64,000 nucleotides of DNA from Bacteroidota bacterium. Lineage in GTDB: Bacteria > Bacteroidota > Bacteroidia > B-17B0 > Aurantibacillaceae. The notes under the pieces were generated by a model. It saw only the letters and a list, made by a program, of their open reading frames with translations. It made no database searches and was not told the DNA's origin. Below, one piece after another: positions 36,821 through 39,825 of the stretch. The position numbers were made by a program, and so were the translations under genes. The first letter of the stretch is position 1. Every line of letters begins with the position of its first letter. The stretch spans positions 1 to 64,000 of the forward strand of contig JAJNBG010000022.1 of assembly GCA_021155905.1 (NCBI GenBank), in the 5' to 3' direction.

Positions 36821-37147
36821 ATGACAGATATAAAGATCAATATTCAGAATCCGGATCAAACCATTACTACACTGGAAGCACCAACCGACATGGGGCTTAG
36901 CTTAATGGAATTTTTAAAAGGAAATGAATATGATATTTTAGCCACCTGTGGCGGCATGGCTTTATGTGCTACCTGCCACGTGAGCGTGATCAGCGGCTTC
37001 GATCAGTTGACGGAGATCACAGATGATGAATATGCCATGCTGGATACCTTGCCAAACATCACCGATACTTCCCGATTAAGTTGCCAGTTGAAATTAGCGG
37101 ATAATATGGATAATATCACCGTTAAGATTATGGGTGACGGCAATTAA
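36821..37147 (+). CDS. 2Fe-2S ferredoxin, adrenodoxin type
   Basis: The 108-residue protein has cluster ligands C43, C49 and C52 in ATCGGMALCATCHVSV and C88 in SRLSCQLKL, the CX5CX2C...C spacing of vertebrate-type ferredoxins. ISGFDQLTEITDDEYAML is the acidic partner-binding helix. Such ferredoxins serve P450s, dioxygenases or Fe-S assembly; the FNR-type reductase at 34093 is a plausible electron donor. It stands alone, with a -7 box ending 4 bases before its ATG. Confidence 0.93.
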   Translation: MTDIKINIQNPDQTITTLEAPTDMGLSLMEFLKGNEYDILATCGGMALCATCHVSVISGFDQLTEITDDEYAMLDTLPNITDTSRLSCQLKLADNMDNITVKIMGDGN

Positions 37148-37168
37148 GATTAACTAAGAATATTAGAT

Positions 37169-37698
37169 GATACTTTTTGCGATCCCGATAGCTATCGGGA
37201 GTATCCAAAAGCTTTTTATCTTACTTTTTTCCTTGATGAAAAAAGTAACAAAAAATTCAAGTCAAAACGATGTCCCCGCGCTCTTTGTATTTATAAGATT
37301 CGCAACCAAAAGAGAACTAAAGCTCTTTTGGGCTCATCTAATAAATACAAATTCACAGCAACTCGGCGCCGCGTTTTGACAGGCCCACGCTCCGTCCTAT
37401 CGGAAATTTTATAGCAGCATTGGATGAGTCATGTAAACCTCCGATTGAGTGTTTTTTATTCAGTCAGAGGTGCAATACATCTATATCTCACGAGAGAATT
37501 TAAAACATCGAATGATGAAATGGCCTATTAAAATTTAGCGTAAAAATCAAGCGGTATCAAAAGCTGGAGCATGTGTGCAGATGGTTTGGGCTGTTCGCGA
37601 AGCGCTTTCAAAGCATCAGCTTGATGCCGCGCAGATTTTAGCTAAATTTTAATAAGCCTTGATTTTTTTGTTAACTTTATCGGGATCGCAAAAGTATC
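37169..37698. repeat. ~530-base structured element with terminal inverted repeats, non-coding
   Basis: The ends 37169-37190 and 37678-37698 are inverted copies (GATACTTTTTGCGATCCC versus GATACTTTTGCGATCCC on the other strand, continuing GATA). Inside are the 18-base perfect palindrome 37183-37200, an 11-bp stem 37221-37231/37238-37248, a nested triple stem (37261-37269/37372-37380; 37284-37294/37341-37351; 37306-37314/37323-37331), a stem 37438-37448/37460-37470, and a long terminal hairpin (37522-37540/37641-37658 and 37551-37566/37617-37630). No convincing gene lies in it. It accounts for nearly all of the 572-base gap 37148-37719. It may be a MITE-like element, a structured RNA, or both. 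Confidence 0.8.
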
Positions 37699-37719: not shown

Positions 37720-39825
37720 TTAAACCCGGATACCAATAATGAGCACGTCATCAACCTGCTCTAGCATCCCCTTCCATGACTCGAAACGATCCGCAAGGAT
37801 CGCAGATTGCTCTTCCATTGGCAGCTGTTTATTTTCTTCCAGGATATCTTTGAGTTGTTTGTATTTAAATTTCTTTCCTTTCTCTCCGCCAAACTGATCA
37901 GCGTAGCCATCCGAAAACAGGTACACCAGGTCGTTTCTGTGTAACTGAATAGTCTTGGAGGTAAAGGTTTGAATCTGCTCTTCCACAAAAGCTCCAACCG
38001 GAAATTTATCTGCACTAATTTGCAGTAGCTCATCATCCTTAATGAGGTAAATCGGATTATTGGCTCCTGCGTAATTCAGCTCTAATGTTTTAGTATTCAA
38101 TACACACAAAGAAATATCCATTCCGTCCTTCACAGAGGACTCCTGGTAAGTCTGATGAAGGGCGACGATCAATTGATTGTTCACATAATTTAAAATGTCT
38201 GCAGGATCGTTCAGGTCTTTTTCCAGAACTGCCTTGTTCAATAAATTATAATTCACGATGGAGATAAGGGCACCCGGTACACCATGCCCCGTACAATCAG
38301 CAGCGGCCACAAACACCAAATCCCCTTTCTGTTCAATCCAGTAAAAATCACCACTTAAAATATCCTTAGGTTTGTAAAAGACAAATGACTGCGGCAACAA
38401 TGACTGCCATTGCTTTTCCGGCGGCAGGATAGCACTTTGAATTCGCTCAGCATAACGGATACTATCTGTAATGTCTTTGTTCTGTTCCTCCACAATATGT
38501 TTTTGGTTCTCTACCGTTTGTTTCTGTTCTTCGATGATCTTGTTCTTTTCTTCCAGAGCAATGTTCACCTTTTGTTTTTGCTTCAATCCCCTGAAAACAA
38601 AAAACACCAGCACACATAAAATAGAGGCGGCAATAATAAAAATGGTTTTGATGAAAGATTCACTCTTGACTTTCAAATTCAATAATTCATTTTCCTGCTG
38701 CTTTTTTTCGGAAGCAAATTTAGTTTGCATTTCCGCGGTGATTTCTGCCTGGTCTTTATTATACAAAGTGTCCTTTAAGCTCCAGCATTCCACACTGTAA
38801 TCCACGGCCTTTTTATAGTCACCCATATCACGGTGCAATAAGGTCAGGTTTTCCAGGCACAATATTTTTTTGGACAGAGAATTTAATTCAATCGCCAGTT
38901 CATGAGCTTTGTCATAATACTCTTTCGCCTTTGGATAATCTTTCTTATCGTAATAGATGGATCCAATATTATTACAGGAAGGAAAACTGCTTTTTTTATC
39001 GCCCATTTCCATATAAATCTGGTATGCTTCCTGAAAATGCTGCAGGGCTCTATTAGTGTCCTGCATGCCATAATAAATGGCGCCCAGGTTATTTAAAGAT
39101 GTGCCCTCGCCTTTTTTATTACCGACTTTCCGTTTTAATTCCAATGAAATTTCAAGGTATTCTATAGCCTTTTTATAATTGCCCTGGTTGGAATAAATAT
39201 TCCCCAGGTTGGTATAACAACTGGCTTCGGAAACGATGTCATTGGTTTCTTTAGCAAGGACCATGGCTTTATTATAAAACTCAATGGCTTGGGGTTCGTT
39301 GCGGGTATCCTCGTATAGTAAACCAAGATTGATGTAGAGTCCGGCCAATCCGTCTTTATAATTATTTTTCTCAAAGATCGTGAGCGCTTCGCTGTAATGT
39401 GTTAACGCGGCATCGAGTTCATCCGTTTTATAAGCGACTTTTCCAAGCCCTTCATAAGCTTCAGCCATCCCGTTGGACTGTTTGTTTTTATCATAATGGG
39501 ATAAGGCTTCAATGAAGTTCGATTTAGCCAGGCTGTATTCTGATAATAAATAATTGATCTCCCCTTCAATGCCAAAAGCATTAGCGATGCCTTCCTCGTA
39601 TTTGGCTTTTTCAGAGAAAGCTTTCGCAGAATTTACCAGCTCCATGGCTTTATCCAAATCCTTGGTGAGGTAATATTTGGAAAGGTTTATCAAGGCATCT
39701 GCTTTTTGTTCATTCGTTACCGCCTGCTGTAATTTTTTATGCAGCGCCAGTGAATCTGCTCTTGAAAAGAGAGAAAGGCCAGCAAAGAGAATACAGCTTA
39801 TAAAAAGTAAACAGCGGTTGAACAT
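37720..39825 (-). CDS. TPR-containing membrane SpoIIE-type phosphatase
   Basis: The 701-residue protein has a signal peptide, about seven TPRs (~30-350, with repeats like AIEFYNKAMVLAKETND and ASCYTNLGNIYSNQGNYKKAIEYLE), a membrane segment (~390-412), a coiled coil (~415-460), the DSIRYAERIQSAILP linker and a SpoIIE/PP2C domain (~470-701) with LSGDFYW, AADCTGHGVPGALIS, FSDGYADQFGG and DDVLIIGI. Periplasmic TPRs probably sense a partner and control the cytoplasmic phosphatase. Its C-terminal half is closely related to the phosphatase at 17890, and its whole layout to the truncated protein at 42348. Confidence 0.92.
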   Translation of the reverse strand: MFNRCLLFISCILFAGLSLFSRADSLALHKKLQQAVTNEQKADALINLSKYYLTKDLDKAMELVNSAKAFSEKAKYEEGIANAFGIEGEINYLLSEYSLAKSNFIEALSHYDKNKQSNGMAEAYEGLGKVAYKTDELDAALTHYSEALTIFEKNNYKDGLAGLYINLGLLYEDTRNEPQAIEFYNKAMVLAKETNDIVSEASCYTNLGNIYSNQGNYKKAIEYLEISLELKRKVGNKKGEGTSLNNLGAIYYGMQDTNRALQHFQEAYQIYMEMGDKKSSFPSCNNIGSIYYDKKDYPKAKEYYDKAHELAIELNSLSKKILCLENLTLLHRDMGDYKKAVDYSVECWSLKDTLYNKDQAEITAEMQTKFASEKKQQENELLNLKVKSESFIKTIFIIAASILCVLVFFVFRGLKQKQKVNIALEEKNKIIEEQKQTVENQKHIVEEQNKDITDSIRYAERIQSAILPPEKQWQSLLPQSFVFYKPKDILSGDFYWIEQKGDLVFVAAADCTGHGVPGALISIVNYNLLNKAVLEKDLNDPADILNYVNNQLIVALHQTYQESSVKDGMDISLCVLNTKTLELNYAGANNPIYLIKDDELLQISADKFPVGAFVEEQIQTFTSKTIQLHRNDLVYLFSDGYADQFGGEKGKKFKYKQLKDILEENKQLPMEEQSAILADRFESWKGMLEQVDDVLIIGIRV

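Follow-up and report, generated by a model that had tools for sequence, protein, structure and literature searches.

A dispersed, folding DNA repeat of Bacteroidota built as mosaic doublets of structured units

The 530-base element at positions 37169 to 37698 of the window, by which we mean the whole 64,000-nucleotide stretch of DNA analysed here, is a member of a dispersed family of structured DNA repeats that encode no protein. Paired, compensatory changes in its stems show that natural selection maintains the folds of parts of the element, and the family is real and apparently undescribed. A search of open-access papers for its exact repeat strings found none. We give an even chance to the reading that explains it best, namely that it is a non-autonomous, BIME/REPIN-like element of two head-to-head structured units that moves as folded single-stranded DNA. 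The folded single strand would then be recognised by its tip, internal loops and END hairpin, and mobilised in trans by an enzyme that would be neither a resident Y1 or Y2 HUH transposase nor a reverse transcriptase.

The element occupies a convergent intergenic gap, between the 3′ ends of two genes. It folds with an energy of -184 kcal/mol, whereas shuffled sequences average -121 (z = -11.05) and none of them folded as well as the real one; the opposite strand behaves similarly (z = -10.9). Rfam gave no hit at the gathering score, and nothing meaningful when E-values up to 5 were admitted. The sole reading frame within the element, 70 amino acids at 37167 to 37379, has no Pfam match and looks spurious, in agreement with the preliminary description of this DNA. 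The parts of the window copy and its neighbours are as follows.

36821 to 37147, plus strand: 2Fe-2S ferredoxin gene (fdx), left neighbour of the element
37169 to 37205: outermost hairpin on the left, GATACTTTTTGCGA-palindrome-GTATCC, with the short form GATACTTTTGCGAAAAGTATC in other copies
37183 to 37200: 18-bp perfect palindrome TCCCGATAGCTATCGGGA, also at several other positions inside sister elements
37221 to 37248, minus strand: left END hairpin of 11 bp, TTACTTTTTTC[CTTGAT]GAAAAAAGTAA, with arms at 37221-37231 and 37238-37248 and the loop at 37232-37237
37256 to 37261, minus strand: left-END foot, reading CTTGAA on the minus strand and complementary to 5 bases of the END loop
37261 to 37385, minus strand: cassette A, a nested hairpin whose unit strand is minus, with the END on its outer (left) side
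37386 to 37519: centre joining both units, holding a stem (37437-37441 with 37467-37471) and the shared CTR motif (37477-37499)
37520 to 37658, plus strand: cassette D, a long hairpin with tip GGGCTGTTCGCGAAGCGC, related to the wider tip CTGTTTGAGCGnAGCGAGTT
37658 to 37663, plus strand: foot CTTGAT of the right END
37670 to 37678, plus strand: what is left of the right END hairpin after truncation, GTTAACTTT, from comparison with other D copies
37678 to 37698: inverted copy of the left terminus, TATCGGGATCGCAAAAGTATC, standing in place of the usual right END in the window copy
37720 to 39825, minus strand: TPR/SpoIIE protein gene, right neighbour of the element

Every stem that had been listed for this element is present: the 18-base palindrome, the 11-bp hairpin, the nested stem with its CCAAAAGAG/CTCTTTTGG tip, an ACCTC..GAGGT stem and a terminal hairpin of about 130 bases. 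The terminal inverted repeat of 21-22 bases fared less simply. It does exist in the window copy, where a perfect 16-bp repeat (37175-37190 with 37678-37693) lengthens to about 21-22 bases at the ends if one additional T is allowed, but the family as a whole does not end in this way: other D copies close on the right with the hairpin AACTTTTTGTATCAAGACAAAAAGTTAG, as sequence comparison indicates. In the window copy the right END breaks off after GTTAACTTT, and the left end recurs in inverted form in its place, which makes the terminal inverted repeat a peculiarity of this copy.

Comparison of copies revealed a common grammar of head-to-head units and five cassettes that the preliminary description had not brought out, nor had it noted the loop-foot pairing and the genomic clustering given below. 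Each unit, 125-200 bases long, consists of a long hairpin cassette with an END hairpin on its outer side, and two units lie head-to-head in a doublet, ENDs facing outward, such that an intact element reads outer hairpin, END hairpin, cassette, centre, cassette, END hairpin, outer hairpin. The outer ends of intact copies are themselves inverted (GATACTTTT...AAAAGTATC), and several elements begin at the apex of cassette A. Reading of the copies distinguished five cassette types, A to E, the window copy being an A+D doublet; the internal-loop motif of B and C was recognised by reading alone. A scripted count found about 23 intact two-cassette doublets in the genome to which the window belongs, among which 9 of the 10 possible mixed pairings occur and same-type pairings are absent (0 versus 4.7 expected, P=0.005), likely because they would be long near-perfect palindromes. 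Under the single-stranded DNA reading, template switching or recombination, taking place in the centre and ends that the units share, would generate chimeric doublets, and same-type doublets would be lost as long perfect palindromes.

Smaller palindromes were also observed within the copies. Cassettes B, C and D contain an inserted second hairpin, GCTGGCTCTTCGCTAAAAATGTT...AACGCTCAGCCC, which is small and has a palindromic core that varies (L031 6969-7256, L035 12905-13120, L040 1859-2122 and L041 14701-15000). Short perfect palindromes (TCCCGATAGCTATCGGGA, TCACGCCATGGCGTGA and TCCGCCAGCTGGCGGA) substitute short stem or loop stretches in different copies (L031, L034, L035, L039 and L041) and look like mini-palindromes that move independently.

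The preliminary description had anticipated homologous copies elsewhere, and these proved numerous: 61 matching pieces were found in the same genome (4.06 Mb, 67 contigs), matches occur in 17 of 19 relatives of the genus, in numbers that differ greatly between species, and related parts extend across Bacteroidota. Within the genome, copies crowd onto about a dozen contigs, contig C6, for example, packing nine doublets into 42 kb, while 386 kb sampled from 20 stretches elsewhere held none. On contigs C6, C50, C19 and C16, they cluster in a few chromosomal regions with housekeeping neighbours such as pheS. In the relative G007, contig C21 carries direct-tandem doublets about 490 bases apart (L047, 116-1450), in the order A-E, A-E, then C-D.

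Mobility of the element is well supported but indirect. Neither a transposition event nor an empty site in a close strain was observed. An element-free site, one of the checks proposed earlier, was found in the relative G003, where the orthologous fdx and SpoIIE genes are adjacent, their stop codons just a few bases apart; the flanks at this site are too diverged for a target duplication to be read, and loss of the element is also possible. The expected target duplications did not materialise. GAT stands on both sides of the window element and was not seen flanking the other intact copies compared, and comparison of flanks by eye found no duplication of at least 3 bases common to intact copies. 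A classic MITE, whose terminal inverted repeats a DDE transposase would use to move it, is not supported. While such an element would indeed be non-coding, intergenic and multi-copy, and the inverted outer ends of intact copies would suit it, the 21-22-base repeat is particular to the window copy, no target duplication is shared, many units in relatives have no outer hairpin, and the conserved structure far exceeds what ends need. We regard a DDE-moved MITE as improbable.

Compensatory change in the stems was borne out by two cassettes. In cassette D, both partners have changed in 18 of 47 pairs, and 96% of cells are paired (23 D cassettes from the same and related genomes); the corresponding values for cassette A are 16 of 37 and 98% (18 cassettes). 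None of 500 shuffles reached the covariation score of either, and sliding the pairing partner abolished the signal in both. Between the covarying stems lie conserved tips and asymmetric internal loops. The END hairpin shows a further pairing, in that the six bases of its loop match those of a foot of equal length lying immediately upstream on the unit strand. Full 6-base loop-foot pairing is found in 59 of 85 distinct ENDs, in three covarying versions, CTTGAT/ATCAAG (36), CTTGAC/GTCAAG (12) and CTTGAA/TTCAAG (11), and ENDs of this kind number 35 in 296 kb of element-rich DNA versus 0 in 386 kb of other DNA from the same genome. If formed simultaneously, the loop-foot contact and the hairpin may make a pseudoknot; they may also be alternatives, the geometry being tight.

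The wobble pairs carry information on strand. Counted on the unit strand across the five cassettes, paired columns with G-U number 28 and those with A-C 11 (P=0.009), and RNase P of the same genus, treated by the same method, gave 19 versus 8; this excess points to selection on one strand, as RNA or as single-stranded DNA, with which it is equally compatible. By cassette, the bias is clear in D (10:2), which supplies much of the signal, not significant in the other cassettes together (18:9, P=0.12) and absent in A alone (8:7). A duplex, strand-symmetric reading had been favoured by the few wobbles in a both-strand fold computed without G-U and by the 19 GT to 16 AC counted in single folds; it was overturned by a fairer count that allowed G-U on both strands.

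The main rival to movement as folded single-stranded DNA takes the units as structured RNAs, either 3′-end or terminator-like elements or a small-RNA family, which spread as repeats and were kept for the use of the RNA. The RNase P-like wobble bias fits this rival, as do the conserved tips and asymmetric loops between covarying stems and the enrichment of copies between convergent genes (12 of 28 versus 41 of 260, P=0.001), but a convergent bias is expected of any insertion that avoids promoters. Moreover, Rfam offers no match, promoter-like matches are not above chance, and one terminator-like match was found where shuffled sequences average 0.5, which is no clear excess. The opposite unit strands in mosaic doublets, the differences in copy number between species and the absence from the orthologous site look instead like mobile DNA. 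On balance, we consider the structured RNA unlikely, though it deserves serious attention.

Beyond the genus, END hairpins occur in many families of the phylum Bacteroidota. D-like units with the tip CTGTTTGAGCGnAGCGAGTT were found in 7 of 395 sampled genomes, in which a reversed control pattern of this tip gave zero matches; these units have different covarying stems, with an END following, and many units in relatives have no outer hairpin. The exact D tip has its named carriers among uncultured Bacteroidota MAGs. Seven tip-bearing units lie in 23 kb of the genome G277, 2-10 kb apart and six of them in one orientation, sharing a common core with sharp boundaries and unrelated flanks. A phylum-wide element class, neither REP nor MITE, is a further possibility, to which we would assign a little more weight than to the RNA rival and distinctly less than an even chance. 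Its unit would be a folded single strand defined by a conserved tip, asymmetric internal loops and END loop-foot pairing, moved by a recombinase new to such sites and built into two-cassette doublets in this genus.

We also weighed whether the copies could be by-products of palindrome instability, that is, hairpins copied and perfected by template switching during replication, with neither dedicated mobility nor function. Such a process could account for the nesting of palindromes, for junctions between elements at the apex of cassette A, for a right terminus that repeats the left one in inverted form and for the copy in G014 that lies inside a larger inverted repeat. It would not explain why the element is dispersed to many loci and has related units in other families, why unpaired motifs of the tip and loops are conserved, or why the wobble bias is strand-specific, and we hold this origin to be hardly likely.

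Movement as folded single-stranded DNA, the preferred reading, calls for a mobilising enzyme. Unlike REP and REPIN with their TnpA-REP (RAYT), the element has no detectable resident Y1 partner: Y1 (PF01797) was not detected in its own genome (G000, 94% complete), G007 or G277 (both 99%), although positive controls were, and none of the Y1 loci of relatives (L206-L217) contains a unit or an END. Given the incompleteness of the own genome, this absence is strong only together with the copy-bearing, Y1-free G007 and G277. Y2 (PF04986, IS91) was found in none of G000, G007, G277 and others, in a search for which 14 control genomes gave no signal and whose sensitivity is unproven apart from matches in G107, G378 and G014. 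RVT_1 reverse transcriptases were absent from G000, G003, G007, G009 and G258. RAYT, reverse transcriptase and IS91 were thus rejected as resident mobilisers, no Y1, RVT_1 or Y2 gene having been detected in the own genome; the mobilising enzyme could lie in the missing 6% or belong to another family. A phage or plasmid origin was likewise rejected, as plasmid and phage collections gave no match and the D tip was not found in viral contigs. In G014, a D-type unit and a second END were observed inside the larger inverted repeat (L232, 1610-2190, contig C4), which adjoins a decayed IS91-type (Y2) transposase fragment.

Among known systems, REP, BIME and REPIN sequences are intergenic and present in many copies, as singlets and inverted doublets, with a mosaic of a few motif types and single-strand structure (PMC6006769, PMC2817692, PMC3116915). 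The element shares their inverted doublets and mosaic organisation (23 doublets, 9 pairings) but has units of 125-200 bases versus the 20-40 of REP, and adds cassettes, tips and loop-foot pairing. Correia, ERIC, RUP and YPAL, which are small non-autonomous MITE-like repeats (PMC2229807), are similarly short, non-coding, dispersed, foldable and intergenic; in contrast to them, the element has two exchangeable cassettes drawn from five, a covariation-tested structure and phylum-wide relatives, and no target duplication was found. The BrickBuilt MITEs of Porphyromonas gingivalis (PMC5771137), likened by description and not by sequence, are also non-coding repeats of a Bacteroidota genome and sources of spurious small genes. 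Few dispersed folding repeats are known in bacteria, and the family would add a large, structurally rich one from a phylum whose repeats of this kind have been poorly described; it also dissociates folding repeats from resident Y1 transposases, to which they are commonly attributed. A class of intergenic sequence that is likely to be taken for small proteins in annotation finds an explanation here, and the family provides a natural setting for studying palindrome shuffling and tolerance.

Integron attC sites provide a last comparison. They resemble the units in their folded single strand, variable stems and conserved unpaired features, and the seven copies of G277, six of them same-oriented, recall them as well. 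Nevertheless, the outer RYYYAAC / GTTRRRY boxes were not seen by eye in the G277 units, and the genes between these copies run both ways. In this region (L199, 4228-13430; contig C2 of G277, about 317-326 kb), Fic, AAA/DUF234, AAA_14/DUF4143 and HTH genes alternate with units that share one orientation; two of the AAA genes resemble each other, and the layout is like that of a cassette array.
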